Assembly: GCF_001748285.1 (NCBI RefSeq)
Contig: NZ_BDGT01000007.1
Coordinates: 62,001 to 126,000, forward strand
DNA: 64,000 bases
Origin: Thermogemmatispora onikobensis
GTDB taxonomy: Bacteria; Chloroflexota; Ktedonobacteria; Ktedonobacterales; Ktedonobacteraceae
Direction: 5' to 3'
A program made the position numbers and the translations under genes. The notes below the pieces were generated by a model. It saw only the letters and a program-made list of their open reading frames with translations, did not search any database and had not been told where the DNA came from. Positions 41,999-58,896 of the stretch are shown piece after piece (within the stretch, counting starts at the first letter, position 1; each line of letters opens with the position of its first letter).

Positions 41999-42518
41999 GG
42001 CGATTCTCCTTGTGCGTTGCTGCATATGACTGACAGTGCTCCCTGACCGGTGGACGCGCGGGCCGGGCCGTTGCATGGTTGGTGTGGCGGCGGCGGCGAT
42101 CCCTCGCGTTGGTGGCTGGCCGAACACTGGGCCACGGCGTGTGGCCATGCTTACGGGTACGATCCGCTTCTGCTCCTGGTGACTGGCGAGCCGCCAGGTT
42201 GCTGGGCTGCGCCAGAATGCAAGCAAATAAGCAAGCGGACAAGTAAGTAAGCACGAGAAAAGAAGAGCACGCAGGGGGCGAGGTCAATGGTAGGGTCCCT
42301 GGGGTGAGACGCGCCGTGGTCCTGCGGCGGGTGGCATTGGCCTCACCTGGCGGCGGGGGCCCCGTCCCTGAAAGGGCCTCCACCGTTTCCCTACGTGTTC
42401 TTTACTTTATTATGCCGAGTGACCATGTACATCAGAAAGTACTTATGTTATCATTTCCCTAGACATCTTTATCATTTCGAGGGGTTCTCTTCTTTTGGGC
42501 GTCGGGGGAGGCCTATCC
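41999..42518. other. Intergenic upstream of divergent regulators
   Basis: No gene seen. AT content rises sharply after about 42400, where a weak plus-strand promoter can be placed. A stretch with repeated AAGCAAATAAGCAAG-type words lies near 42220-42250. Confidence 0.5.
42426..42454 (+). promoter_or_regulatory. Weak promoter candidate for the NB-ARC-TPR gene
   Basis: TGTACA at 42426-42431 and TATCAT at 42449-42454 with a 17-base spacer. Matches are 4/6 and 5/6. The region is AT-rich and 65 bases before the start. Confidence 0.33.
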
Positions 42519-45245
42519 ATGAGCAGCAACCGATCGGTGGAGGAGCCACCGCGGCCCCGCGTGCGTCTCGTGGAGGCTCGCATGAGCCGTGGCTGGTCGC
42601 AGCAGGAGGTGGCTGAGCGACTGGGGACGACGCATGTCAATGTGAGCCGCTGGGAGCGCGGGGTGACGAAGCCCAATCCGTATTTTCGACGCAAGTTGTG
42701 TCGGCTGTTTGGGTTGACAGAGGAGGAGCTGGACCTGGCGCCCGCTGTGAGCGAGGCGTCGGGGCGGGAGGCGCAGGCAGGAGTGGGGGGTGGAGCGGAG
42801 GGGATGGCTGGCGGTGGTGGGCCGGAGCAGGGCGAGCAGGAGCTGCTGCGAGGTGGCCGTGACTCTGGTCCGCTGGGGGAGGTGACGGGCGGGCGTCCGG
42901 CTGAGACGATTATTGATCCGATGATTCCTTTGCCGCCGCCGGTGCGCCTGGTGGGACGCGATGCTGAGTTGCAGCGTATTAAGGGGCGTCTTTTTGCCGG
43001 TGAGGCGGTGGCTCTGAGCGCTTTGAATGGGTTGCCTGGGGTGGGCAAGACTTCGTTGGCGGTGGCCCTGGCGCATGATCCCGAGGTGCGGGCCTATTTC
43101 AAGGATGGCATTCTCTGGGCGGCGCTGGGGCCACGTCCTCATATGACGGGTCTCTTGAGCCGTTGGGGGGCTTTGTTGGGCTTGCCGGCGACGGAGGTGG
43201 CCGGGCTGACGAGTCTGGAGGCCTGGGCCAGGGCTTTGCGTACGGCGATCGGGCCGCGGCGGATGCTGCTGGTCATTGATGACGCCTGGCGGATTGAGGA
43301 GGCGCTGGCGTTGAAGGTGGGCGGCGCCCAGTGCGCTCATTTGTTGACGACGCGCTTTGCACATGTGGCGACGGAGTTTGCGGTGGAGGGGGCGGCGGCG
43401 ATCACGGAGTTGGGCGAGGAGGATAGTGTGCAGCTCTTGCGCTTGCTGGCGCCGACGGCGGTGGAGCAGGAGCCGGAGCGCGTGCGGGTTTTGGTGCGGG
43501 CGGTTGGCGGGTTGCCGTTGGCCTTGACGTTAATTGGGAATTATTTGCGTAAGGAGAGCTATGCAGGTCAGGTGCGCCGTATTCGGGCGGCGCTGCAGCG
43601 GCTGAGCGATGCGCGGGTGAGGCTGGGTTTGACGGAGTCGCGGGGCCCGGTGGAGGTGCATTCGAGCCTGCCAGGCGAGCCGGTGCTGTCGCTGCAGTCG
43701 GTGATTGCAGTCTCGGATGAGCAGCTGAGCCAGGCGGCGCGGTCGGCGTTGTATGCGCTCTCGGTTTTTCCGCCGAAGCCGGCGAGCTTTTCGGAGGAGG
43801 CGGCCCTGGCGGTGGCGGCCTGTTCGACGGATGAGTTGGATGCGCTGGTGGATGCGGGTTTGCTGGAGAGCAATGGCGGCGATCGCTATTTGTTGCATCA
43901 GGTGATTGCGGATTATGCGCGGACGCGCCTGGAGGCCCAGGGTGAGGAGGCGGTGCAGGCCCCTTTTGCCCGCCTGATGGAGTATGCAATCGATTATGCT
44001 GAGGAGCATCGGACGGATTACGAGCTGCTGGAGCGGGAGAGTGCGGTGATTGTGGCCGGTCTGGAGGCGGCCTATATGCTGGGACGACAGGCGGAGCTGG
44101 TGCGCGGGGCGGTGACGTTTGCGCCGTTCTTGCTGGTGCGGGCCTCGTATGGGGTGGCCGAGCTGTGGCTGCAGCGTGCTCAGGCGGCGGCCCAGGCCCT
44201 GGGCGATCAGCACGGGATGACAGGGGTGCTGCTCTACCGCGGGCAGATCGCACTGCGCCAGGGGGATTATGCCGCTGCCGAGGGCTATTCTCAGGAGGGG
44301 CTGCAGCTGGCCCGCGCCCTGGGCGATCCCGAGCGTATCTGTGCCCTGCTGACGGATTTGGGAACGGTCTTTTCAAGGCGTGGAATTTATGTGCAGGCTG
44401 GAGTCTATCTGCAAGAAGGGCTGCAGATAGCGCGGCAGATCGGTCATAAGGAGCAGATTTGCGAGCTACTGGGCAAGCTTGGGGAGATTGCTGCTCGCCT
44501 TGGAGACTATGGCCAAGCCGATGCCTATCTCCAGGAGGGGCTGGCTCTGGCCAGGGAAATTGGAGATCGTGAGCGTATCTGCTTGATGCTGGCTAGCTTG
44601 GGTGCTTCTGCCGGAGAGCAGGGGAAGCATCTTCTGGCCAAGGAGTACGCTCAGGAAGCCTTGTCATTGGCCAGGCTCATGAGCCACTTCGAATGGATGA
44701 GCCTATTGCTTATCAATTTAGGGGAAGCTGAAACTGAGTTAGGAAACTATGAATTGGCTGATGCGTATTTCGATGAAGCATTGATGCTTGCAAGAAATAT
44801 AGATCACAAGGAATTAATGTGCGCTATATTTATTAATGAGGCTATAATTAATAGGAGAAGATTTCAGCTTCAAAAGGCTGAAATGCTTCTGAAAGAGGGT
44901 TTGATACTAGCACAAGAACTAGGAGTTCCTTATTTTATTTGTCATGTCTTAAATGAATATGGCAATATATATATACAAAGAAATCAGATTGAAGATGCTA
45001 GAAAAACTTTTCAGGATATGATGAATACCATACCAGGAGGGGCACAAGATTTGGTAGCCCTTGCTCAGTATGGACTGGCTAGAATAGCGGCATTAGAGGG
45101 AAAGAAAGATGAGGCTAAGGAAATGGCTCGAAAAAGTTCAGTAATCTTGCGATCTATAGGACATCGATCTATAGCGGAAATAGAAGATTGGCTTGTGCAT
45201 CTGGAAGATAATGGCGAAGGGGCTATCGAGACAGGTGAACAATAA
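42519..45245 (+). CDS. XRE-NB-ARC-TPR regulator (STAND ATPase)
   Basis: A 908-residue protein. XRE helix-turn-helix (about 17-73, with SRGWSQQEVAERLGTTHVNV), an acidic/Gly-rich hinge, an NB-ARC ATPase (Walker A GLPGVGKTS with K177, Walker B LLVIDDAW with D254, GLPLAL motif), a winged linker and about eight TPR repeats to the C-terminus. STAND proteins of this layout switch on when a ligand meets the TPR region. ATG at 42519 follows GGGGGAGG. The base composition changes strikingly inside the gene: GC-rich with G-ending codons up to about 44,200, then AT-rich from about 44,680 to the end, without loss of frame. It faces a tiny secreted-peptide gene 52 bases beyond its stop. Confidence 0.9.
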   Translation: MSSNRSVEEPPRPRVRLVEARMSRGWSQQEVAERLGTTHVNVSRWERGVTKPNPYFRRKLCRLFGLTEEELDLAPAVSEASGREAQAGVGGGAEGMAGGGGPEQGEQELLRGGRDSGPLGEVTGGRPAETIIDPMIPLPPPVRLVGRDAELQRIKGRLFAGEAVALSALNGLPGVGKTSLAVALAHDPEVRAYFKDGILWAALGPRPHMTGLLSRWGALLGLPATEVAGLTSLEAWARALRTAIGPRRMLLVIDDAWRIEEALALKVGGAQCAHLLTTRFAHVATEFAVEGAAAITELGEEDSVQLLRLLAPTAVEQEPERVRVLVRAVGGLPLALTLIGNYLRKESYAGQVRRIRAALQRLSDARVRLGLTESRGPVEVHSSLPGEPVLSLQSVIAVSDEQLSQAARSALYALSVFPPKPASFSEEAALAVAACSTDELDALVDAGLLESNGGDRYLLHQVIADYARTRLEAQGEEAVQAPFARLMEYAIDYAEEHRTDYELLERESAVIVAGLEAAYMLGRQAELVRGAVTFAPFLLVRASYGVAELWLQRAQAAAQALGDQHGMTGVLLYRGQIALRQGDYAAAEGYSQEGLQLARALGDPERICALLTDLGTVFSRRGIYVQAGVYLQEGLQIARQIGHKEQICELLGKLGEIAARLGDYGQADAYLQEGLALAREIGDRERICLMLASLGASAGEQGKHLLAKEYAQEALSLARLMSHFEWMSLLLINLGEAETELGNYELADAYFDEALMLARNIDHKELMCAIFINEAIINRRRFQLQKAEMLLKEGLILAQELGVPYFICHVLNEYGNIYIQRNQIEDARKTFQDMMNTIPGGAQDLVALAQYGLARIAALEGKKDEAKEMARKSSVILRSIGHRSIAEIEDWLVHLEDNGEGAIETGEQ

Positions 45246-47429: not shown

Positions 47430-47849
47430 TCATAATTTTTGCCCATAGGCTGCCACAAAGCAGTAGCAAGTATTTAGAGCATCCCATTCTTTACCAGCCT
47501 GCTCTATAATGTTATGGATCTCTTGCTCCTGCATTTTGAAATAGGCAGCGATGGGAGGCGTCATAGCCTTCCAGCCCTCGCGGATGTCCAGAGAGAAGAG
47601 GGAGCCGAGGCGACCCGCCCATGCGCTGATTGGGGCATCGATCATGTGGCGCTCGACGTTCAGGACAGCGCGCAGCACATAATGCTGGAAGTCGAGGCGG
47701 TTGACCTCGCCCAGGTCCTTGGGAAGCAGGTAGGGCTGTTGGCCCAGATAGCGACGCGAGCTTGTCCGAGATGGGAGTACACTCTCCTCGAGGCCTGTTC
47801 GGCGGATAGATGCCGGACACGAGCGGCGTCGAAAGAACCACCAGCGCAT
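47430..47849 (-). CDS. Core-deleted methyltransferase paralogue (139 residues)
   Basis: Shares both ends of the array proteins: the N-terminal tag MRWWFFRRR, then SSRRYLGQQPYLLPKDLGEV, joined directly to the C-terminal part WAGRLGSLFSLDIREGWK and ending VAAYGQKL. About 176 residues, including the SAM-binding motif I, are absent, yet the frame is unbroken, so it cannot be a methyltransferase. It may be an internally deleted relic or a small protein that keeps the tag and the C-terminal region, for example as an interaction partner. It is the last gene of the array, 105 bases beyond the copy at 47955. A ribosome-binding-like GAAAGGAGTG precedes the ATG, so translation is possible. Confidence 0.7.
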   Translation of the reverse strand: MRWWFFRRRSCPASIRRTGLEESVLPSRTSSRRYLGQQPYLLPKDLGEVNRLDFQHYVLRAVLNVERHMIDAPISAWAGRLGSLFSLDIREGWKAMTPPIAAYFKMQEQEIHNIIEQAGKEWDALNTCYCFVAAYGQKL

Positions 47850-47954
47850 AAGGGCTACTCACTCCTTTCTGGTGAAATAGGGCAAGCGCTCGCTCAGTCA
47901 GGCTCTGGCATGAGAGCTGCTGAAGCAAGAGGTAGAGCCAGTTGCGAGCCTCCC

Positions 47955-48902
47955 TCAGCTGCTATAAGGCTTCTGGCCGTAGGCGGCGACGACGTGGTAG
48001 CGCGTCTGCAGGGTGTTCCACTCCTGTCCGGCCTGTTCGATGAGGGCCAGGACCTCCTGCTCCGACATCTGGAAGCGGGCGGCAATGAGGGAGCTGATCG
48101 CTTTACCGGCCTCGCGCAAATCCAGGGAGAGCAGGGAGCCAACGCGCCCGCCCCAATCGCCCAGTGGAATATCGATGTCCTGGCGATTGACCTGTATCAG
48201 CCCGGCCTGATGCAGGAAAGAGTCCAGGGAGCGGAGGACCCCACCCTCGTTGTCGAGGCCACGGAGGGCACCTAGCTGGCCCATGAGATAGAGAAATTGC
48301 TGGGTAGCTGGTCCGGCTGGATTGAAATGACTGACATGGGTGCCCGCCTCGACCAACTCGACCCAGCCGCCGGGGACGGTGACGCGCACGAGTTCTCGCA
48401 CAACATTCGGCCAGGCCGCGAGAGGAATAGCCAGCACGAGCAGGCGTTGATGGACAAAATCGAAGGTCTCGTTCTCAAAGGGGAGGCCCTTCAGGGCATC
48501 GCCCTGGACGAAGCGGTAGTTAGCTGGTGGAGTAGTAGCTTTAGCTTTGGCAGGCTCCAGATCGAGGCCGATGACCTCGGCCTGGGGGAATTGCTGAGCG
48601 AGTTCAATGGCCCACTGGCCGGTGCCACAGCCAACGTCGAGGATGCTGCGCGGCTGGACGATGGGCGCTAAATAGTTACCACGCAGTGCGGAACGCAGGA
48701 CATAATGCTGAAAGTCCAGGCGGTTGACCTCGCCCAGGTCTTTGGGGAGCAGATAGGGCTGCTCGTCCAGATAGCGGCGCGAGGCTGGTGAACCTGGCTG
48801 GGGTGGCTCGCTGACTGCTGGACGAGGCGCAGGCCGAACAGAGTCAGCAGGTGTGATAGATGCGTTTGTCTCGCGGCGCTGGCGAAAGAACCACCAGGGC
48901 AT
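47955..48902 (-). CDS. LaeA/UMTA-like class I methyltransferase, array copy H
   Basis: A 315-residue protein and the most diverged intact copy. N-terminal tag MPWWFFRQRR, a variable Pro/Ser linker, then the block DEQPYLLPKDLGEVNRLDF. The SAM-binding motif I is ILDVGCGTGQWAIELA, with the acidic post-I residue in VIGLDLEPAKAK and motif IV-like FDFVHQRL. The block order (LPKD, RLDFQH, then GCGTGQW, FDFVH and PGGWVEL) is that of the fungal LaeA/UMTA family, which affects secondary metabolism and development. Its linker before RFVQGDALKGLPFEN is distinct from the other copies. The gene is 105 bases from the deleted copy. Substrate is unknown for the family in bacteria; methyl transfer to a small molecule or protein is inferred. 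Confidence 0.85.
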   Translation of the reverse strand: MPWWFFRQRRETNASITPADSVRPAPRPAVSEPPQPGSPASRRYLDEQPYLLPKDLGEVNRLDFQHYVLRSALRGNYLAPIVQPRSILDVGCGTGQWAIELAQQFPQAEVIGLDLEPAKAKATTPPANYRFVQGDALKGLPFENETFDFVHQRLLVLAIPLAAWPNVVRELVRVTVPGGWVELVEAGTHVSHFNPAGPATQQFLYLMGQLGALRGLDNEGGVLRSLDSFLHQAGLIQVNRQDIDIPLGDWGGRVGSLLSLDLREAGKAISSLIAARFQMSEQEVLALIEQAGQEWNTLQTRYHVVAAYGQKPYSS

Positions 48903-49036
48903 GAGAGATTCCTCCTTGCGGGCAAGTTAATGCTCATACGAGCTAAATAGTACAGCATTGGGCAATGGCTTGTTCATCGCGTGAATGGCCCTGGGCCCTA
49001 GGTCACAGCGAAGTCACGGCGTGTCCAGCAGGGCTT

Positions 49037-49140
49037 TCAGACCTGACGGGCATGGTCAATGATGGCTAGCACTTCCTGCTCAGACCTCTCGAAACGAGCC
49101 ACACGGAAGCTCTGATTACCTCTCGGGCTTCACTACTCCA
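49037..49140 (-). pseudogene. C-terminal remnant of another array methyltransferase
   Basis: Minus-strand codons 49037-49096 read RFERSEQEVLAIIDHARQV and stop, clearly matching RFGRSEQEILQLIEQA of the intact copies. Just upstream, in another frame (about 49097-49140), SSEAREVIRASV resembles REACKAISAPI. The rest of that copy is gone. The flanking 48903-49410 interval otherwise holds no gene. Confidence 0.65.
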
Positions 49141-49410
49141 GGCGAAAGCTGTCAAGAAACTGAGGCATTCCCGACTTGCTTCAGGAGAGTAGAACAAGCT
49201 CCCCTGTGAAGCCGGCTGTGTTGCCTCTGGGGGCGAGCCAGGGGATGAGAGAGTGTGTGTGCTCCCCTCCCACTGGCTGGCTGTACCTGCACAAGCAGGG
49301 AGCTGGGTCTTGCATCACCAGGGCAGGCGCTCAGGTCCTGCGACCTGAGCGTATGTGATTCTGTCGAGGAGGCGCCGATCAGTCCCCACTGCCCTCTGAT
49401 GAGCATGGGT

Positions 49411-50210
49411 CTAGGTGGTCGGTGGTTTTCTTCCATAAGCAACGGCAAGCCGGTAGCGCGTATCAAAATTCATTAATTCTCTTGTTGCTTCTTCAATCAA
49501 ATCAGGATCTTCCTGCTCTGGGATCTGGAGGCAGGCGACTATGGCGCTGCTGAGTCCCTTTGAACTCTCCCGGAAATCGAGGGTCAGCAAGGAACCGAGG
49601 CGTTCACCCCGCTGGCTCAGAGGCACCTCGAAGCATTGGTATTCTACCCTGGCCAGTCTGGCATCGCGCAGATAGCGGTCGAGGGAACGCATGATGACTC
49701 CCTCGGTATCAAGGCCGCGCTGGGCTGCCAGTTGCCCGGCCAGGAAGAGCAGGCGCTGATGGACGAAGTCGAAGGAGTTGTTGTCGAAGGGGAGGCCCTG
49801 CAAAATATCTCCCCGAACGAAGCGGTAGTTGGGAGGAGGAGAGGTAGTAGCTTTGACCTGTTCGAGGTCGAGGTCGACGACCTCGGCGTGGGGGAACTGC
49901 TGTGGTGGGCGAGTTCGAAGGCCCACTGGCCGGTGCCGCAGCCGACATCGAGGATGCGGCGCGGCTGCTCGATGGGGGCCAGGTAGTTGCCGTGCAGGGC
50001 GGCACGCAAGATATAGTGTTGGAAGTCGAGGCGGTTGACCTCGCCCAGGTCCTTGGGGAGCAGATAGGGCTGCTCGTCAAGGTAGTGACGGGAGGCAGCA
50101 AAGGATGGCAGGGTTGTCTCATCGTGAGACGGGCTGACCACGGACGGTTTGGGAGCGGTGGCATTGGCGGAAGCGTTCGTTGCGCAGAGGCGGAAGAACC
50201 ACCAGGGCAT
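49411..50210 (-). pseudogene. Frame-broken methyltransferase copy (G)
   Basis: The N-terminal frame starts at the ATG at 50210 with MPWWFFRLC, carries DEQPYLLPKDLGEVNRLDF and RRILDVGCGTGQWAFELAHH, then is thrown out of frame by an apparent 5-base insertion near 49898-49908 relative to the other copies. The downstream frame resumes with FPHAEVVDLDLEQVK and FDFVHQRLLFLA, but then lacks about 45 residues (the post-PGGWVEL region) before GQLAAQRGLDTEG. Two lesions make an active enzyme unlikely. It ends VAYGRKPPTT. It lies 47 bases downstream of copy F. Confidence 0.85.
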
Positions 50211-50257
50211 GAAACATGGCTCCTTCTAGTCTTGTCAAATCACTCTAGTTGGGTTAG

Positions 50258-51178
50258 TTAGTACGGTTTCTGACCATAAGCTACGATGTAGCTGTATTTT
50301 GTGTGATACCTGTTGAATTCTTGCAGCATTTCCTCGATAGCTGTAGCAACCTCCTGCTCTGTGATAGTGAACCGATGAGCAATTGGCGCGCTGAGTGCTT
50401 TCGCTCCTTCCCGGAAATTCAGTGCCATTAAAGAGCCGAGACGTCCACCCCATTCACCGACTGGGACTTCGATCTGACGACGCTCGATGTGGATGAGGCC
50501 AGTTGCTGAGAGATAGTGGTCCAGTGAGCTGGCTACCACTCCTTCGCTATCGATCCCTCGCAGAGCTGCTAACTGTCCTCCCAATGTGAAGAGTCGCTGA
50601 GTAACAGCACCCGAGGGAGTGAGGTCTTTTGGTGCAATACTGGCTTCGACGAGTTCGACCCAGCCGCCGGGAGCGGTGACCCGGGCCAGCTCCTGAACAG
50701 CTGTTGGCCAGGCTGCTTGAGGAATGGCCAGGAAGAGCAGGCGCTGATGAACGAAGTCGAAGGAGTTGTTGTCGAAGGGGAGGCCCTGCAAGATGTCCCC
50801 CTGGACGAAGCGGTAGTTGGGAGGGGGAGAGGTAGTAGCTTTGACCTGTTCGAGGTCGAGGCCGACGACCTCGGCCTGGGGGAACTGGTGGGCGAGTTCG
50901 AAGGCCCACTGACCGGTGCCGCAGCCGACGTCGAGGATGCGGCGCGGCTGCTGGAGGGGAGCTAAATAATTGCCGTGCAGGGCGGCACGCAAGATATAGT
51001 GTTGGAAGTCGAGGCGATTGACCTCGCCCAGGTCCTTGGGGAGCAGGTAGGGCTGTTCCTGCAGGTAGCGGCGGGAGCCTTGCAGGCGGGGGAGGGCGAC
51101 CTCACCGGGCAGCCAGCCAGAAGAGGACTGGGCAGGGGTAGTATTGCGAGAGCGGCGGCGGAAGAACCACCAGGGCAT
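50258..51178 (-). CDS. LaeA/UMTA-like class I methyltransferase, array copy F
   Basis: A 306-residue copy with the tag MPWWFFRRRSRN, a Thr/Pro/Ser linker and LPRLQGSRRYLQEQPYLL. SAM motifs are intact (ILDVGCGTGQWAFELA and VVGLDLEQVK). The C-terminal third, after WVELVEASIAPK, is unlike that of its neighbours (HIERRQIEVPVGEWG, then FTITEQEVATAIEEM) and ends IVAYGQKPY. The ATG at 51178 is 8 bases after GGAGG; a TTG two codons upstream is less likely. Its leader sequence is virtually the same as that of copy E, implying recent duplication of the 5' part. Enzyme fold is secure; substrate unknown. Confidence 0.87.
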   Translation of the reverse strand: MPWWFFRRRSRNTTPAQSSSGWLPGEVALPRLQGSRRYLQEQPYLLPKDLGEVNRLDFQHYILRAALHGNYLAPLQQPRRILDVGCGTGQWAFELAHQFPQAEVVGLDLEQVKATTSPPPNYRFVQGDILQGLPFDNNSFDFVHQRLLFLAIPQAAWPTAVQELARVTAPGGWVELVEASIAPKDLTPSGAVTQRLFTLGGQLAALRGIDSEGVVASSLDHYLSATGLIHIERRQIEVPVGEWGGRLGSLMALNFREGAKALSAPIAHRFTITEQEVATAIEEMLQEFNRYHTKYSYIVAYGQKPY

Positions 51179-51255
51179 ATGCAAAACCTCCTTTCTCTGT
51201 TGTCGGTGAAAGCAGCTGACCAGGCTGAGTGCTGGGAGCAGGCAGCGTCAGCGGG

Positions 51256-52185
51256 TCAAGGCTTCTGACCGTAAGCCACTGTGAAAGAGCAGCTGGAATG
51301 TAGCTCATTCCATTCCTGGCAGGCCCTGTCAATGAGTTGGAGAATCTCCTGCTCAGGGATCTGGAAGCGAGCCGCCAGCGGGGTACTGATTGCTGTCCAC
51401 ATCGTGCGGAAGTCAAGAGCGAGTAGAGAGCCGATGCGGCCCCCCCATTCGCCTACAGGGATCTTGATGGGATGACATTGGATCTGCTTCAGACGAGCCT
51501 GGGCCAGATAGTGATCGAGGGAACGTGCGACGACGCCCTCGCTATCCAAGCCTCGCAGAGCAGCGAGCTGACCTATGAGAGATGCCACTTGCTGGTTGGC
51601 TGGCCCAGAGGGAGTAAGGTTGCTGATATGGATGCTTGTCTCGACGAGTTCGACCCAGCCGCCGGGAGCGGTGACCCGGGCCAGCTCCTGAACAGCCGCC
51701 GGCCAGGCTGCTTGAGGAATCGCCAGAACAAGGAGACGTTGATGAACGAAGTCGAAGGAGTTGTCATCGAAAGGGAGGCCTTGCAGGATGTCCCCCTGGA
51801 CGAAGCGGTAGTTGGGAGGTGGGGAAGCCGAGGGTTTGACCTGTTCGAGGTCGAGGCCGACGACCTCGGCGTGAGGGAACTGGTGGGCGAGTTCGAAGGC
51901 CCACTGGCCGGTGCCACAGCCAACATCGAGGATGCGGCGTGGCTGCTCGATGGGGGCCAGGTAGTTGCCGTGCAGGGCGGCACGCAAGATATAGTGTTGG
52001 AAGTCGAGGCGGTTGACCTCACCCAGGTCCTTGGGGAGCAGGTAGGGCTGTTCCTGCAGGTAGCGGCGGGAGCCTTGCAGGTTGGGGAGGGCGACCTCAC
52101 CGGGCAGCCAGCCAGAAGAGGACTGGGCAGAGGTACCAGCAGGGGGAGTATTGCGAGAGCGGCGGCGGAAGAACCACCAGGGCAT
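51256..52185 (-). CDS. LaeA/UMTA-like class I methyltransferase, array copy E
   Basis: A 309-residue copy. Tag MPWWFFRRRSRN, linker TPPAGTSAQSSSGW, block LPNLQGSRRYLQEQPYLL, motif I ILDVGCGTGQW. Its core carries the variant PSASPPPNYRF and PFDDNSFDFVHQRLLVLA, shared with copy B. The C-terminal third (QIQCHPIKIPVGEWGG and FQIPEQEILQLIDRA) is particular to this copy. ATG at 52185 follows GGAGG as in copy F; 77 bases separate the two genes. Methyltransferase activity is expected from intact SAM motifs; acceptor unknown. Confidence 0.87.
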   Translation of the reverse strand: MPWWFFRRRSRNTPPAGTSAQSSSGWLPGEVALPNLQGSRRYLQEQPYLLPKDLGEVNRLDFQHYILRAALHGNYLAPIEQPRRILDVGCGTGQWAFELAHQFPHAEVVGLDLEQVKPSASPPPNYRFVQGDILQGLPFDDNSFDFVHQRLLVLAIPQAAWPAAVQELARVTAPGGWVELVETSIHISNLTPSGPANQQVASLIGQLAALRGLDSEGVVARSLDHYLAQARLKQIQCHPIKIPVGEWGGRIGSLLALDFRTMWTAISTPLAARFQIPEQEILQLIDRACQEWNELHSSCSFTVAYGQKP

Positions 52186-52254
52186 ATGCAAAACCTCCTT
52201 TCTCTGTTGTCGATGAAAGCAGCCGGCCAGGCTGAGTGCTGGAAGCAGGCAGCG

Positions 52255-53193
52255 TCAGTGTGACAAGGGCTTCTGGCCATAGGCGACGGCGAAGTGAAGT
52301 TGTGTGCGGAACTGGGTCCACTCCTGATAGGCTTGCTCAATGAGCTGTAAGATTTCCTGCTCAGAGCGACCGAAGCGGGCGGCGATAGGGGCACTGATGC
52401 CCTTCCAGCCTTCATACACATTTAGGGCCATCAGGGAGCCGATACGTCCGCCCCATTCGCCCAGAGGAACGGCAAAGGGGTAATAATGAGTGTTGACGAG
52501 GCCAGCCTCTTCCAGATAGCGGGCTAGGGAGCGCATCACAAGACCCTCTGCATCGAGGCCTCTGAGAGCACCGAGCTGGGCTGAGAGGGTGTAGATCTCT
52601 TGGGTGGCAGGGCCAGAGGGGAGCCAATCCTCCAAGGCGGTGCCAGTCTCGACGAGTTCGACCCAGCCGCCGGGGGCGGTGACGCGGGCGAGTTCCTGGA
52701 CGGCGCCCGGCCAGGCGGGCTGCGGGATAGCAGCTATGAGCAGGCGCTGATGGACGAAGTCGAAGGAGTTGTTGTCGAAAGGGAGGCCCTGCAAAATATC
52801 TCCCTGGACGAAGCGGTAGTTGGGAGGTGGGGAAGCCGAGGGTTTGACCTGTTCGAGGTCGAGGCCGACGACCTCGGCGTGAGGGAACTGGTGGGCGAGT
52901 TCGAAGGCCCACTGGCCGGTGCCGCAGCCGACATCGAGGATGCGGCGCGGCTGCTCGATGGGGGCCAGGTAGTTGCCGTGTAGGGCGGCACGCAAGATAT
53001 AGTGTTGGAAGTCGAGGCGGTTAACTTCGCCCAGATCCTTGGGGAGCAGGTAGGGCTGTTCCTGCAGGTAGCGGCGGGACCCCTGCAGGCGGGGGAGGGC
53101 GACCTCGCCCAGGCGCCAGCCAGAAGAGGGTGGGGCCGAGGTCGCTGCGGGAGCGATGTCGCGGGAGCGGCGACGGAAGAACCACCAGGGCAT
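52255..53193 (-). CDS. LaeA/UMTA-like class I methyltransferase, array copy D
   Basis: A 312-residue copy with the tag MPWWFFRRRSRD and an Ala/Pro linker ending GWRLGEVALPRL. SAM motifs are intact. The C-terminal part (YYPFAVPLGEWGG, then QEILQLIEQAYQEWTQFRT) is almost identical to that of copy B, while its middle (LLIAAIPQPAWPGAVQEL) is closer to copy C, a mosaic that points to gene conversion. The frame is open 37 codons upstream, but the ATG at 53193 follows AGGAGG and matches the tag start of all copies. Leader shared with copy C. Confidence 0.87.
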   Translation of the reverse strand: MPWWFFRRRSRDIAPAATSAPPSSGWRLGEVALPRLQGSRRYLQEQPYLLPKDLGEVNRLDFQHYILRAALHGNYLAPIEQPRRILDVGCGTGQWAFELAHQFPHAEVVGLDLEQVKPSASPPPNYRFVQGDILQGLPFDNNSFDFVHQRLLIAAIPQPAWPGAVQELARVTAPGGWVELVETGTALEDWLPSGPATQEIYTLSAQLGALRGLDAEGLVMRSLARYLEEAGLVNTHYYPFAVPLGEWGGRIGSLMALNVYEGWKGISAPIAARFGRSEQEILQLIEQAYQEWTQFRTQLHFAVAYGQKPLSH

Positions 53194-53258
53194 AATCACG
53201 ATCCTCCTTGCTAGTCGATTGGGCAGTCGAGGGGCCGAAAGCCTGAGTGCAGGCGGTC

Positions 53259-54191
53259 TCAATGCGTCAAGAGTTTCTGACCATAGGCTATGGCAAAAGG
53301 CCATTTTGTTCGGAACTCATTCCACTCCTGGCTAGCCCGTTCGATCAGCTGCAATACATCCTGCTCAGAGCGCCCGAAGCGGGCCGCAATAGGGGCACTG
53401 ATGGCCTTGCAGGCTTCGCGCAGATCCAGCGCCATCAGGGAGCCGATGCGTCCGCCCCATTCGCCCAGGGGAACGGAGAAAGGCTGATAGTGGATGTTGA
53501 CAAGGCTCGCTTCCTCCAGGTAGCGGGCTAGGGAGTGCGGTACATCATCGGTATCTATTCCTCGTAGGGCAGCGAGTTGAGCGGCAAGTCGCCAGAATTC
53601 TTGAGTGGCTGGGCCGCAGGGGAGCCAGTCCTGTAGAGCGGTGCCAGTCTCGACGAGTTCGACCCAGCCGCCGGGGGCAGTGACACGGGCGAGTTCCTGG
53701 ACGGCGCCCGGCCAGGCAGCCAGAGGGATGGCCAGGAAGAGCAGGCGCTGATGAACGAAGTCGAAGGAGTTGTTGTCGAAGGGGAGGCCCTGCAAGATGT
53801 CCCCCTGGACGAAGCGGTAGTTAGAGGGAGGAGTAGTGGCCTTGGCCTGTTCGAGGTCGAGGCCGACGACCTCGGCCTGGGGGAACTGCTGAGCGAGTTC
53901 GAAGGCCCACTGGCCGGTGCCACAGCCGACGTCGAGGATGCGGCGCGGCTGCTCGATGGGGGCCAGGTAATTGCTACGCAGCGCGGCGCGGAGGGCGTAG
54001 TGCTGGAAATCGAGGCGGTTGACCTCACCCAGGTCCTTGGGGAGCAGGTAGGGCTGTTCCTGCAGGTAGCGACGGGACCCCTGCAGGCGGGGCAAGGCAA
54101 TTTCATCGGGTTGCCAGCCGCTGGAAGAGGAGCTTGAAGCTGCCACCCGAGAACTGCTGCGGGAGGGGCGACGAAAGGGCCACCAGGGCAT
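53259..54191 (-). CDS. LaeA/UMTA-like class I methyltransferase, array copy C
   Basis: A 310-residue copy whose tag is altered to MPWWPFRRPSRS: the second aromatic pair is broken by Pro. Linker rich in Ser, then ALPRLQGSRRYLQEQPYLL. Motif I ILDVGCGTGQWAFELAQQ and VVGLDLEQAKAT are intact. The C-terminal portion, IHYQPFSVPLGEWGG to SEQDVLQLIERASQEW, differs from copy D mainly by point changes. ATG at 54191 is 9 bases after AGGAGG. Of the intact copies it keeps the LGLDLEQAKATTP stretch without the PSASPPP variant. Function as for the other copies. Confidence 0.87.
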   Translation of the reverse strand: MPWWPFRRPSRSSSRVAASSSSSSGWQPDEIALPRLQGSRRYLQEQPYLLPKDLGEVNRLDFQHYALRAALRSNYLAPIEQPRRILDVGCGTGQWAFELAQQFPQAEVVGLDLEQAKATTPPSNYRFVQGDILQGLPFDNNSFDFVHQRLLFLAIPLAAWPGAVQELARVTAPGGWVELVETGTALQDWLPCGPATQEFWRLAAQLAALRGIDTDDVPHSLARYLEEASLVNIHYQPFSVPLGEWGGRIGSLMALDLREACKAISAPIAARFGRSEQDVLQLIERASQEWNEFRTKWPFAIAYGQKLLTH

Positions 54192-54281
54192 AATCACGAT
54201 CCTCCTTGTAACAAAGATTGTCCTTATCGTGGACAGGTCTGATAAGACTGAAGAAAGAAAGCGCTGGCCAGGTTCTTAAGG

Positions 54282-55214
54282 CTAGATGGGCTTCTGACCA
54301 TAGGCGACGGCGAAGTGAAGTTGTGTGCGGAACTGGGTCCACTCCTGATAGGCTTGCTCAATGAGCTGTAAGATTTCCTGCTCAGAGCGACCGAAGCGGG
54401 CGGCGATAGGGGCATTGATGGCCTTCCAGGCTTCACGTGCATCTAGAGCCATCAGGGAACCGATGCGGCCGCCCCATTCGCCCAGAGGGACGTCAAGGGC
54501 CTGGTAGTGAATATTGACAAGGCCGGCTTCCTCCAGGTAGCGGGCTAACGAGCGCATAACGGTGCCATCGGTATCGATACCCCGCAAAGCAGCGAGCTGA
54601 GACCCGAGCTGATAGAATTCTTGGGTAGCGGGTCCAGAGGGCAGGTAGTCCTGCAGAGCGGTGCCGACTTCCAGGAGTTCGATCCAGCCGCCGGGTGTGG
54701 TGACCCGGGCCAGCTCCTGAACAGCCGCCGGCCAGGCTGTTTGTGGAATCGCCAGAACAAGGAGACGTTGATGAACGAAGTCGAAGGAGTTGTCATCGAA
54801 AGGGAGGCCTTGCAGGATGTCCCCCTGGACGAAGCGGTAGTTGGGAGGTGGGGAAGCCGAGGGTTTGACCTGTTCGAGGTCGAGGCCGACGACCTCGGCC
54901 TGGGGGAACTGCTGGGCGAGTTCGAAGGCCCACTGGCCGGTGCCACAGCCGACGTCGAGGATGCGGTGTGGCTGCTGGAGGGGAGCTAAATAATTGCCAC
55001 GTAGAAGAGCGCGCAAGATATAGTGTTGGAAGTCGAGGCGGTTAACTTCGCCCAGGTCCTTGGGGAGCAGGTAAGGCTGTTCCTGCAGGTAGCGACGGGA
55101 CCCCTGCAGGCGGGGCAGGGCGACCTCACCGGGCAGCCAGCCAGAGGGGGACTGGGCCGAGGTCGCTGTGGGAGCGGTGTCGCGGGAGCGGCGACGGAAG
55201 AACCACCAGGGCAT
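54282..55214 (-). CDS. LaeA/UMTA-like class I methyltransferase, array copy B
   Basis: A 310-residue copy with the tag MPWWFFRRRSRD, linker APTATSAQSPSGWLPG, and intact SAM motifs. The core has the PSASPPP and PFDDNSFDFVHQRLLVLA version also found in copy E, while the C-terminal 70 residues match copy D. Post-motif region GGWIELLEVGTALQDYLP is particular. ATG at 55214 follows GGAGG; leader of the E/F type. A useful witness for mosaic exchange within the array. Confidence 0.87.
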   Translation of the reverse strand: MPWWFFRRRSRDTAPTATSAQSPSGWLPGEVALPRLQGSRRYLQEQPYLLPKDLGEVNRLDFQHYILRALLRGNYLAPLQQPHRILDVGCGTGQWAFELAQQFPQAEVVGLDLEQVKPSASPPPNYRFVQGDILQGLPFDDNSFDFVHQRLLVLAIPQTAWPAAVQELARVTTPGGWIELLEVGTALQDYLPSGPATQEFYQLGSQLAALRGIDTDGTVMRSLARYLEEAGLVNIHYQALDVPLGEWGGRIGSLMALDAREAWKAINAPIAARFGRSEQEILQLIEQAYQEWTQFRTQLHFAVAYGQKPI

Positions 55215-55291
55215 ATGCAAAGCCTCCTTTCTCTGTTGTTGCTGAGAGGTAGCCGAGAAGTTGAGTGCTGGGAGCAGGCAGTGTCAACAGG

Positions 55292-56221
55292 TCAAGGCTT
55301 CTGACCGTAGGCTACTGCAAAGTGTAGCTGTGTCTGGAACTCGTTCCATTCCTGGCTGGCCTGCTCGATCAGCTGCAGGATCTCCTGCTCGGATCTGCTG
55401 AAACGAGCAGAGGTGGGAGCACTAATTGCCTTCCATGCTTCATGCAGGTTCATGGCCATCAAGGAGCCGAGACGTCCGCCCCACTTGCCAAGAGGAACGT
55501 CGAACGGATGGTAGTGGACGTTAGCGAGGCCGGCCTTTTCCAGGTAGTGAGCCAGGGAGCGTAGTACAATACCTTCCGCATCTAGCCCGCGCAGAGCTGC
55601 CAGTGCTCCTCCAAGCCTGCAAAATTCCTGTGTAGCGGGGCCAGAAGGCGTGAGATCCTGCGGTGCCGGGCTCGATTCAACGAGTTCGACCCAGCCGCCG
55701 GGGGCAGTGACGCGGACCAGCTCCTGAACAGCTGTCGGCCAGGCTGCTTGAGGGATGGCCAGGAAGAGCAGGCGCTGATGGACGAAGTCGAAGGAGTTGT
55801 TGTCGAAAGGGAGGCCCTGCAGGATGTCCCCCTGGACGAAGCGATAGTTGGGGGGGGGAGAGGTAGTAGCTTTGACCTGTTCGAGGTCGAGGCCGACGAC
55901 CTCGGCCTGGGGGAACTGCTGGGCGAGTTCGAAGGCCCACTGGCCGGTGCCACAGCCGACATCGAGGATGCGGCGCGGCTGCTGGAGGGGAGCTAAATAA
56001 TTGCCGCGCAGGGCGGCACGCAAGATATAGTGTTGAAAGTCGAGGCGGTTGACCTCACCCAGGTCCTTGGGGAGCAGGTAGGGCTGTTCCTGCAGGTAGC
56101 GACGGGACCCCTGCAGGCGGGGCAGGGAGACCTCACCGGGCAGCCAGCCGCGGGAAGGTTGAGCGAGTTCAGCGGCCTGAGAGCTCGTGCGAGCGCGGCG
56201 GCGGAAGAACCACCAGGGCAT
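55292..56221 (-). CDS. LaeA/UMTA-like class I methyltransferase, array copy A (first in array)
   Basis: A 309-residue copy and the first gene of the minus-strand array. Tag MPWWFFRRRART, linker SSQAAELAQPSRGWLPGE, intact ILDVGCGTGQW and VVGLDLEQVK. The C-terminal third (HYHPFDVPLGKWGGRLGSL, then SARFSRSEQEILQLIEQASQEW) is distinct in having Lys where others have Glu in the GEWGG motif. The ATG at 56221 follows AAGGAG with 8-base spacing; the frame runs 8 codons further. Any array promoter should be upstream, in 56222-56841. Acceptor unknown. Confidence 0.87.
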   Translation of the reverse strand: MPWWFFRRRARTSSQAAELAQPSRGWLPGEVSLPRLQGSRRYLQEQPYLLPKDLGEVNRLDFQHYILRAALRGNYLAPLQQPRRILDVGCGTGQWAFELAQQFPQAEVVGLDLEQVKATTSPPPNYRFVQGDILQGLPFDNNSFDFVHQRLLFLAIPQAAWPTAVQELVRVTAPGGWVELVESSPAPQDLTPSGPATQEFCRLGGALAALRGLDAEGIVLRSLAHYLEKAGLANVHYHPFDVPLGKWGGRLGSLMAMNLHEAWKAISAPTSARFSRSEQEILQLIEQASQEWNEFQTQLHFAVAYGQKP

Positions 56222-56841
56222 GGAACAGACTCCTTTCTTCTTCAAAGCACTCCTGCAATCTGCTCTTAATCGCTGGCGTCAGAGTAACAGTGATAGCTCT
56301 CTATGGAACAAGCCGAGCAATTGAAGAGATTCCTCTGACCCTCTGCGTTCCTTTCGATCAAGGACAGCTCGTGTACCACTGCTGAAAAAAGAGAAGCCAG
56401 GCTCTGCTACTCGGGGGAGAATCATGCGTGATTCGCCTGGTCCCACCTATAGCTTGCTGCCTGGCCTGAGCCATATCTGAGAATTTGATAGTCTGGCACC
56501 AAAGAGAGTTGCCTCTCCACAGAAACGCCCACGCTCCCAATAAAGCCGGTGTGGCCATAAACATCGCTTGCTCTTGCCGAAAACGGACGGCCTTGACCGG
56601 TGCGGTTCCTTCGCTTAGAGTTTAGAAAAGATGAACGTCATCTGTCAATTTGAATATAATGAAAATGGTGGACACGGTCGATTTTAATGGATTCTTAATG
56701 CACTGTTGCCAGGGGAGGGAGTCGCGGAAAGGACGGCCTCAACTGAGAGGCGAGTAGTCGTGACAGTACAGTGGAAAACAATAACCGGGGGATAAGCAAG
56801 CGTCTGCTTTATAGCCAGTCTAACAGAGCCACTGGAGACCA
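56222..56841. other. Intergenic upstream of the methyltransferase array
   Basis: No gene seen. An AT-rich stretch at about 56620-56700 includes a plus-strand TATAAT (56655-56660) and, on the minus strand, a TTGACA (from TGTCAA at 56643-56648) that might be the -35 of the array promoter, with only a weak -10 at 17 bases. Confidence 0.45.
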
Positions 56842-58896
56842 CTATGGCTGTTCGGTCACCGCAACACTAATGCGGCGAGCAATGCTTACAAGCGTTTGCT
56901 CCTGGGCCGCAGGAGGCAGAGTAGCAAGCGGCTTCTGAGGATCGTTAGCAGGTTCGAAGCTCTGCAGCCCGCTCTCTTCGAAGAGGCAGGAGCTGACAAT
57001 GATAGGGATAATCAAGGTGCCAGCCAGACGGGCCCTCTCCAAGAGCTTCGGCAACTGATTGGTCATAATAAAGTCGGACGCCAAGAACCTAGCGCTGACC
57101 AGAACAATGGCCACGCCCGCGCGCGCAATCGCATCTTCTAATGTCTCCTTCCAGCGACTGCCAGCGCTGATCAGCGTATCGTCCCACAAGTTGAACGTCC
57201 CATTGCGCTCGATAGGAGTCAGGTGGGTGCGCAGACGCTCCAGCCACCGCTTATCTTTACGAGCATAGCAGATAAAGATTTGCTGTCTGCTTGGTACAGG
57301 GCGTTTGCCGACCTTACGAGCCAGCTGCTCCAAATTGCAGTGGCGTAGATAGAAAATAAGGGTCGGATCTTCCGCCAGCAGCACGCCAACTGTGGGATCA
57401 CAGAAGAGATGATACGCCAGATCGGGATAAGAGGCGATGGCTTGAGGCCAGCTTTCTTTGAAAAAGCGCTCCAGGTCGTGGGCACGGCTTGGCTCCTGCT
57501 GCTGTAAAAGTGAAAGCCAGAGCACTCCCTCACGGCTCTGGCTTAGCTCTTCCAGTAGAGAAAGACTGGTTTGATCGTAAGGTCCGCCTGCTACGGCGAA
57601 TTGCTTGATGGCAAGGTCAAATTTTCTCTCCAGCGTTTCCATCACATTCTGAACAGCCTTAGCAAGGTGATGCCGAATAGCAACTGGTGATGGCTGCGTG
57701 TGAATAATATTATTTTGCATGCAAAGATAGTAGCAGAGGAATTGAGCCAGAATAAAGCTACCGTCAACCAGACGGAGAATATCCTCCTTACACTCAAAAC
57801 TCACATTGAGCGCCTGCTCTCCCTGCCTGATCAGTTGCAAAATCTCCTCATCGCTGGCGTGGCCCATCCTAAAGCGATCGAAGCGCATAGCCGTATCGAA
57901 AGAGACGGAGCTGATGAAGCTCTGGCCCGTACCTGGAATACCGATGATCACCAGCTTGCGATCTTCGGGCTGGATATCTGCCAGTAGCTTCAAATAGTCC
58001 ACCAGCTCCTGACGCAAGCCAGGTTCCAGGCGATGGAAATCGTCGATAATCACCACACCGCGATGCCACTGCGAGAGAGTACGGAGCCGTTCGCGGTCAG
58101 CGGGCGCACGGGCACTCAAGAGAGTGATCGTCGGTCGCCCTGCTCTAGCTATCTCCTCCTCTCCAAGTTGCTGGACGGCTTTTTGCACTGCTGTGGTCTT
58201 GCCGATGCCCGAAGGCCCCTCGATGACCACGCCGCGCCCCGGCTCAACAAGAGCCAGCTTCAGGGGCTCGAAGATGGAAGGCGGCACAAAGGTCACTGTG
58301 GGCAGCCCCGTACGCTTGAAGACCCCATCCAGGCGGTAGCTCGTGAGAGGCAGCCCTGGTACTGTCAGTCCACGTGTCCTGCTCTCTGAAGAGGCAGCCG
58401 GTGAGGAGGGCGAAATGCGTCGCCGATTCCGAAGCTCTCTGCAGATCAGGAGGACCTCATGAACGATTTCCTGTAGCGCCCGCTCTCTGGCGATTTCTTC
58501 GCTCAGCGCGCGCCCATTGCGTGGGAGCAGTTGCAAAGAAGCGAGCGGTGTTCCCTCAAGCGGGATAGGCCGGGCAAGAATGGGGATCAGCTGTAACTCA
58601 CCCCGTTGCGCGCGCTCTAATCCTAGCGAGATGGCTCTTTCATAGGTTGGCGATGCCAGCAGGTCGGGACTGATCAGCAGCAGGAGCACATCGGCGGACT
58701 CGATATGCCGACGTAACTCCGCTGCTATGTGAGCACCAGCCCGCAGATCTGTGGATGTGCGGAGAACGATTCCTGCCAAGACCTCTAAGTAGCTCATTAA
58801 TGGGAGGAGCGAATAGAGGAGGCGATAATCCTCGCGAGCACAGATTATAAAAACAATGATATTGGCTTCACGGTCAGGCTGCTCCGTTCTATCCAT
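56842..58896 (-). CDS. TIR-ATPase-TIR protein, STAND-like
   Basis: A 684-residue cytoplasmic protein. N-terminal TIR-like domain (about 12-130, IICAREDYRLLYSL and LLLLISPDLLASPTY), a P-loop ATPase domain (Walker A GPSGIGKT at 227-234, Walker B VVIIDDFHRL at 281-290), a helical region, and a C-terminal TIR (539-650, QIFICYARKDKRWLERLR). In most relatives the C-terminal TIR has Glu in the NELP motif as the NADase residue; here it is Gln614 (TNQLPKLL). The N-terminal TIR also has no Glu at the equivalent position. TIR-NTPase proteins often act in phage defence by NAD consumption; this one may instead be a regulator or scaffold. ATG at 58896. Same strand as the NTF2-like gene 93 bases upstream. 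Confidence 0.86.
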   Translation of the reverse strand: MDRTEQPDREANIIVFIICAREDYRLLYSLLPLMSYLEVLAGIVLRTSTDLRAGAHIAAELRRHIESADVLLLLISPDLLASPTYERAISLGLERAQRGELQLIPILARPIPLEGTPLASLQLLPRNGRALSEEIARERALQEIVHEVLLICRELRNRRRISPSSPAASSESRTRGLTVPGLPLTSYRLDGVFKRTGLPTVTFVPPSIFEPLKLALVEPGRGVVIEGPSGIGKTTAVQKAVQQLGEEEIARAGRPTITLLSARAPADRERLRTLSQWHRGVVIIDDFHRLEPGLRQELVDYLKLLADIQPEDRKLVIIGIPGTGQSFISSVSFDTAMRFDRFRMGHASDEEILQLIRQGEQALNVSFECKEDILRLVDGSFILAQFLCYYLCMQNNIIHTQPSPVAIRHHLAKAVQNVMETLERKFDLAIKQFAVAGGPYDQTSLSLLEELSQSREGVLWLSLLQQQEPSRAHDLERFFKESWPQAIASYPDLAYHLFCDPTVGVLLAEDPTLIFYLRHCNLEQLARKVGKRPVPSRQQIFICYARKDKRWLERLRTHLTPIERNGTFNLWDDTLISAGSRWKETLEDAIARAGVAIVLVSARFLASDFIMTNQLPKLLERARLAGTLIIPIIVSSCLFEESGLQSFEPANDPQKPLATLPPAAQEQTLVSIARRISVAVTEQP

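Follow-up and report, generated by a model that had tools for sequence, protein, structure and literature searches.

What keeps ten copies of one methyltransferase gene head to tail on one strand of a bacterial genome, and do these copies share one reaction or divide several among them? The question is raised by a locus of Thermogemmatispora onikobensis that lies in the window analysed here, a 64,000-nucleotide stretch of contig NZ_BDGT01000007.1. At window positions 47430-56221, on the minus strand, the first-pass annotation had described a tandem array of seven intact, one core-deleted, one frame-broken and one remnant gene, and this description is borne out by open reading frames (ORFs), alignment and sequence. 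We find that partial gene conversion has repeatedly homogenised one half of these genes among linked copies, and that the other half has remained distinct and orthologous across species.

The array and its ten units

All seven intact genes lie on the minus strand and encode 306-315 amino acids (aa). The units are given below with their orthologues in three further species, T. carboxidivorans, T. aurantia and T. tikiterensis.

55292..56221, minus strand: copy 1, intact, 309 aa; its C-terminal half is orthologous to those of T. carboxidivorans copy 7 and T. aurantia copy 6
54282..55214, minus strand: copy 2, intact, 310 aa; structure modelled with AlphaFold2 (AF2)
53259..54191, minus strand: copy 3, intact, 310 aa; orthologue of copy 3 of T. 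carboxidivorans and T. aurantia
52255..53193, minus strand: copy 4, intact, 312 aa
51256..52185, minus strand: copy 5, intact, 309 aa; its C-terminal half is orthologous to those of T. aurantia copy 1, T. tikiterensis copy 4 and T. carboxidivorans copy 5
50258..51178, minus strand: copy 6, intact, 306 aa; orthologue of copy 4 of T. carboxidivorans and T. aurantia
49411..50210, minus strand: copy 7, broken: the frame is interrupted near residue 101, and about residues 155-203 (~48 codons) are missing
about 48980..49330, minus strand: copy 8, weak C-terminal remnant, limits approximate
47955..48902, minus strand: copy 9, intact, 315 aa; it diverges most among the intact copies and has an orthologue in each of the other three species
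47430..47849, minus strand: copy 10, core-deleted ORF of 139 aa, without the core that binds S-adenosylmethionine (SAM)

The units repeat at a spacing of about 1.0 kb with 60-96% identity, far above chance. The frame break that had been noted in copy 7 is present, but it is not the only lesion, since the missing residues leave the core damaged as well. Judged by eye, the C-terminal part of this copy resembles intact copy 8 of T. carboxidivorans and T. aurantia and copy 5 of T. tikiterensis. A remnant also stands at the position of copy 8 in T. aurantia and T. tikiterensis, and the position of copy 10 is occupied in T. carboxidivorans by an intact copy.

The T. onikobensis genome comprises 5,556,502 bases in 112 contigs, in line with the published short-read assembly of strain NBRC 111776 (112 scaffolds, 5,556,501 bp; PMC5064121). 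The possibility that the array is an assembly artefact of one gene is excluded, because the same locus with the same flanks occurs in T. carboxidivorans (ten intact copies on a single 5.6-Mb contig), T. aurantia (nine intact copies and a remnant) and T. tikiterensis (six intact copies and a remnant). The array is therefore real. Common to all four species are a TIR/AAA gene on one side and an HTH/NB-ARC/TPR gene on the other, and array members have been gained, lost and broken independently in each. In a fifth species, isolate HOG45 (L127), the start of the array adjoins the same TIR gene (71% identical), and the fetched sequence holds two units.

The first HOG45 unit, beside the TIR gene, is core-deleted and frameshifted. 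We considered whether the core-deleted form might be a functional decoy and rejected the idea: since the HOG45 unit is frameshifted and has other endpoints, both it and copy 10 look like decay.

By profile, motif and predicted fold, the array members are class I SAM-dependent methyltransferases. All seven intact copies score 69-75 bits against the Pfam profile PF13649 (Methyltransf_25), for which the cut-off is 27, and all exceed the curated cut-offs of both Methyltransf_25 and Methyltransf_11 (PF13649, PF08241). Motif I (DVGCGTG) and the acidic-residue motif GLDLE are conserved among them, and the AF2 model of copy 2, together with Foldseek, supports a Rossmann-like class I fold. The two Pfam models are too broad for substrate prediction, and the N-terminal tag, the linker and the C-terminal half of the array proteins lie outside them; in NCBIfam all equivalog scores were far below their cut-offs, and no functional name could be assigned. 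A sequence search of the PDB aligned mostly the core (best match 3mgg, E 9e-11), and 3mgg was also the best Foldseek match, with template modelling scores of 0.65 (query) and 0.78 (target). Small-molecule methyltransferases predominate among the Foldseek neighbours, for example RebM, AtmM, OxaG, RoqN, MitM and JHAMT. The solved structures of RebM, AtmM, MitM, TleD and 3mgg have the same fold as the array members at only about 13-21% identity.

Partial gene conversion of the cofactor half

We aligned the codons of 32 array genes from the four species and measured divergence as four-fold silent differences. Between neighbouring copies within a species these differences are mostly 0.0-0.3 over the front ~182 codons, and over the back ~125 codons they are mostly near silent saturation, typically 0.5-0.9. 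Among paralogues in the full alignment, the 5' part stays mostly at ~0.1-0.3 and is followed by a jump to about 0.5-0.65 past codon column ~195. Of 70 linked pairs, 68 become more divergent towards the 3' end, and the best change point of 40 of these 68 lies at residues 180-184, which is the end of a predicted strand (172-183) in the AF2 model. Copies 1 and 2 of T. aurantia, for example, differ by 0.00 in the core and by 0.57 in the C-terminal part. The orthologous pair of copy 1 and T. aurantia copy 6 differs by 0.22 in the core and by 0.08 in the C-terminal part. No comparable step is seen among the orthologues of copy 9.

The two halves also have conflicting histories. Back halves cluster by orthologue across species, whereas front halves cluster largely by species, and six T. 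aurantia copies form a single clade in the core tree. This tree rejects the C-terminal orthologue clades (approximately unbiased (AU) test, p 1.3e-5 and 9e-7), and the C-terminal tree rejects the T. aurantia species clade (AU p 0.010). Homogenisation is uneven: copy 9 stands largely outside it, and copy 3 pairs with its T. aurantia orthologue even in the core tree.

Linkage matters to the pattern. Unlinked paralogues of the same genome have silent divergences of 0.56-0.70 in the core and 0.59-0.82 in the C-terminal part, with no contrast between halves. A tandem pair elsewhere in the genome repeats the half-gene pattern, with 0.08 in the core versus 0.55 in the C-terminal part in T. onikobensis and 0.04 versus 0.63 in T. 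carboxidivorans. Genes flanking the array give a baseline silent divergence between species of 0.06-0.37. These comparisons show recurrent partial gene conversion of the cofactor half (residues ~1-182) among linked copies. Codon- or RNA-level constraint on the front half, acting with no conversion at all, would be in keeping with the better conservation of this half at the protein level, but we give it almost no credence, because the cores of unlinked paralogues diverge silently nearly as far as their own C-terminal parts and because the trees of the two halves conflict.

Both ingredients of this pattern have precedents. In domain 3 of bacterial RF1-RF2 (PMC4530459) a region of shared function is likewise converted and specificity regions are kept distinct, and the tandem arrays of Trypanosoma brucei (PMC1855330) are, like this one, duplicates under gene conversion. 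In contrast to RF1-RF2, conversion in Thermogemmatispora recurs over a whole tandem array and in several species, with its boundary at one structural position; unlike in T. brucei, part of each gene escapes homogenisation and retains orthology across species. What is notable about the array and its half-gene homogenisation is that they extend known kinds, tandem arrays and partial gene conversion, in a new form.

One reaction or several

The C-terminal halves are distinct and individually maintained. Their orthologues are mostly under purifying selection, with ratios of non-synonymous to synonymous change (dN/dS) of 0.02-0.19 and one pair, with few changes, at 0.49. Seven positions (187, 201, 246, 263 and 299-301 in copy 2 numbering) are fixed within and different between orthologue groups, and all of them lie past residue 182. 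Repeated conversion between neighbours keeps the cofactor-binding half (residues ~1-182) uniform. The C-terminal half of each copy is ancient and conserved on its own account, and we propose that it most likely determines the methyl acceptor. Because the core is converted while the C-terminal halves stay apart, several acceptors are favoured over dosage, in agreement with the diversifying function that the first-pass annotation had offered as one of two possibilities. Turnover of the copies and their fold neighbours point to a repertoire of enzymes that may act on small molecules, lipid-like compounds or secondary metabolites. No biosynthetic cluster was seen at the family loci checked, where the genes close by have unrelated metabolic or transport roles or lack an assignment.

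Intact array copies begin with an aromatic-basic tag, MPWW[F/P]FR, of the form MPWWFFRRR. Members from other genera keep the pattern in other letters (MRWFGWLRRKR, MGLFNWFRRKR, MNFFSRFFAR), followed by a variable linker. The tag is found in 19 of 22 such members versus 7 of 189 background ORFs, and in the T. onikobensis genome every one of the 17 DNA matches to this pattern lies at the start of a family member. Residues 1-54 have low confidence in the AF2 model and are probably disordered. On the simplest reading this is a putative membrane-surface anchor or docking tag; carried on its flexible linker, it would probably keep the enzymes at the surface of the membrane or on a partner that they share.

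Upstream of copy 1 lies a further conserved feature.

56222..56675, minus strand: promoter-like element (56648-56619) and leader, conserved across species

The promoter-like element is almost invariant in the four species. The leader of ~390 nt is 85-96% identical among them, occurs once per genome and is found only in the genus Thermogemmatispora. It carries a terminator-like stem, AGGCCAGGC...GCCTGGCTT, followed by CTCTTTTTT, and is a possible attenuator, a candidate without covariation support. The idea of a structured RNA was set aside: a single pair is changed on both sides among the four sequences, and the folding of a sub-piece is not better than that of shuffled sequences (z 0.59). A comparison of positions 40000-64000 with Rfam, with E values up to 0.5 allowed, returned nothing. 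The homogenised genes are separated by 40-109 nt, and in several cases the gap sequence follows the C-terminal type of the upstream gene. A GGAG(G)-type site precedes nearly every gene. The single conserved promoter region upstream, together with a ribosome-binding site for nearly every gene, suggests that the array is co-transcribed from that one region.

Our reading as a whole is that of an operon-like array in which uniform cofactor halves are joined to distinct C-terminal halves for different predicted acceptors, rather than one that serves dosage, and we give it a probability of about 0.6. Several observations weigh against it. The flanking baseline varies strongly (0.07-0.37 between T. 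onikobensis and T. aurantia), which weakens comparisons based on orthologues alone relative to the contrast within a genome. Some paralogue pairs are low in C-terminal silent divergence (0.30 for copies 2 and 4), so not all of the duplications are old. The specificity-type positions number only seven, and none would be expected in a core that is homogenised; the C-terminal divergence might also stem from specificity for protein partners. Since the class I fold occurs so widely, its fold neighbours barely narrow the substrate. The tag counts rest on family members, which are not independent observations, and promoter-like matches are no commoner than in shuffles, such that the case for the promoter depends on conservation across species.

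We tentatively consider a further step, in which the locus is a recombination-driven system of specificity cassettes: recombination between similar cores would reorder, duplicate and delete acceptor cassettes, producing lineage-specific sets of putatively membrane-tethered enzymes, and the system might, with the same reserve, be the bacterial counterpart of the LaeA-like expansion in fungi. The C-terminal types differ in order and set among the four species, which fits this proposal and does not demonstrate adaptive shuffling.

Somewhat more doubtful is the idea that the copies are themselves LaeA-like regulators, which would bind or methylate regulatory proteins controlling development and secondary metabolism, the C-terminal halves choosing the protein partners. 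In its favour is an N-terminal LP-x-D...RLD-QH motif, presumably resembling that of LaeA/UMTA; the LaeA label, which the first-pass annotation had adopted, is accordingly a putative one. The filamentous (mycelial), sporulating habit of the host, a heat-loving soil bacterium, also fits. On the other side, family loci have no consistent regulatory or biosynthetic neighbours, Pfam and NCBIfam return only generic methyltransferase matches for the array members, and the SAM-binding motifs of the copies are common to all class I enzymes and hence not LaeA-specific. Published work on LaeA describes SAM motifs, an N-terminus that is disordered, velvet partners and a substrate that has not been identified (PMC3547832, PMC13006574, PMC4299510); of these features, only the SAM motifs and the probably disordered N-terminus are seen in the array, no search aimed at a velvet-type partner having been made. 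Like LaeA, Llm and UMTA proteins, the array members are one-domain class I SAM methyltransferases with a disordered N-terminus (PMC13006574; probably so in the array) and many copies per genome, as with the nine Llm proteins of Aspergillus nidulans (PMC3547832); the tethering of two velvet-associated fungal methyltransferases at the plasma membrane (PMC4299510) may be compared with the N-terminal tag. Unlike them, the array is bacterial, bears the aromatic-basic tag, and is arranged in tandem with partial gene conversion.

Less probable still is a dosage array, the other role first suggested for the locus, in which functionally equivalent copies would raise the amount of a single enzyme. Head-to-tail, probably co-transcribed copies with near-identical cofactor halves are what such an array would show, but the C-terminal halves differ, are mostly near silent saturation and are orthologous across species under purifying selection, and which C-terminal types are kept varies by species.

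The remaining proposal concerns the neighbouring genes.

56842..58896, minus strand: TIR/AAA (STAND-like) protein, syntenic upstream neighbour
42495..45245, plus strand: HTH/NB-ARC/TPR regulator-like protein, syntenic downstream neighbour
61750-63981, minus strand: WD40-like repeat protein, conserved beside the array

The upstream protein has a C-terminal TIR domain and a second, weaker N-terminal TIR match, with an AAA-type domain between them. The STAND neighbours had been taken to hint at signalling or defence, and a module in which the methyltransferases act with these proteins would fit both the flanking of the array by the TIR/AAA and HTH/NB-ARC/TPR genes in four species and the similarity of the TIR to ThsB. 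We nevertheless hold it to be very improbable: an association of methyltransferase and defence genes is conserved at this locus only, the family loci checked elsewhere in the genome having unrelated neighbours; what PADLOC recognises are generic TIR, TPR and SAM domains; the locus is vertically stable and not mobile; and the downstream gene lies on the opposite strand, 2.2 kb off. The TIR/AAA and HTH/NB-ARC/TPR neighbours probably play no part in what the array does. The silent divergence of the TIR gene among T. onikobensis, T. carboxidivorans and T. aurantia is 0.06-0.11 versus 0.14-0.37 in other flanking genes, hinting at recombination between species at the TIR gene.

Family range and what the array offers

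The T. onikobensis genome holds 26-27 close family members, 59 matches when more distant ones are included, and 86 Methyltransf_25 matches in total. For comparison among class members we counted matches at E below 1e-40, which gave 23-28 copies per genome in Thermogemmatispora (10 in the fragmented HOG45) and 0-13 in other class members. In a sample of the phylum, 29 of the 33 relatives at order level or closer carry the family, usually as several dispersed copies, and only 1 of 218 other Chloroflexota does. The earlier remark that such an expansion is unusual for a bacterium is thus not sustained if it is taken to mean that the family is rare, nor is a pattern of one such gene per genome found in Ktedonobacteria, where the family is common and 1-13 copies are usual, with 23-28 in most Thermogemmatispora. 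No tandem copies outside Thermogemmatispora were seen among the matches listed; only the array, not the family, is special to this genus. In T. onikobensis a more distant clade of methyltransferases, about 30-35% identical to the array, likewise forms tandem groups (G000:C9:87220-89864 and G000:C11:87252-89776). Beyond Ktedonobacteria, one family member (47% identity) occurs in the Proteobacteria metagenome-assembled genome Centralia_MAG_675 (L083), and one other Chloroflexota genome (G072) carries five copies; these rare members may reflect transfer or mis-binning. Within the literature collection searched, no paper was found that describes this expansion or links Chloroflexi with LaeA.

The locus provides a clean bacterial case in which conversion homogenises one part of a gene and the remainder stays orthologous across species. 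It also constitutes a natural series in which one cofactor half is combined with many C-terminal, predicted acceptor halves, and the point of exchange recurs at residue ~183. Given the shared cofactor half and this repeated exchange point, specificity swaps in class I methyltransferases become directly testable with proteins from a thermophile. Finally, the array raises the question of why a mycelium-forming, sporulating class of bacteria expanded a family that presumably resembles LaeA, just as filamentous fungi did.

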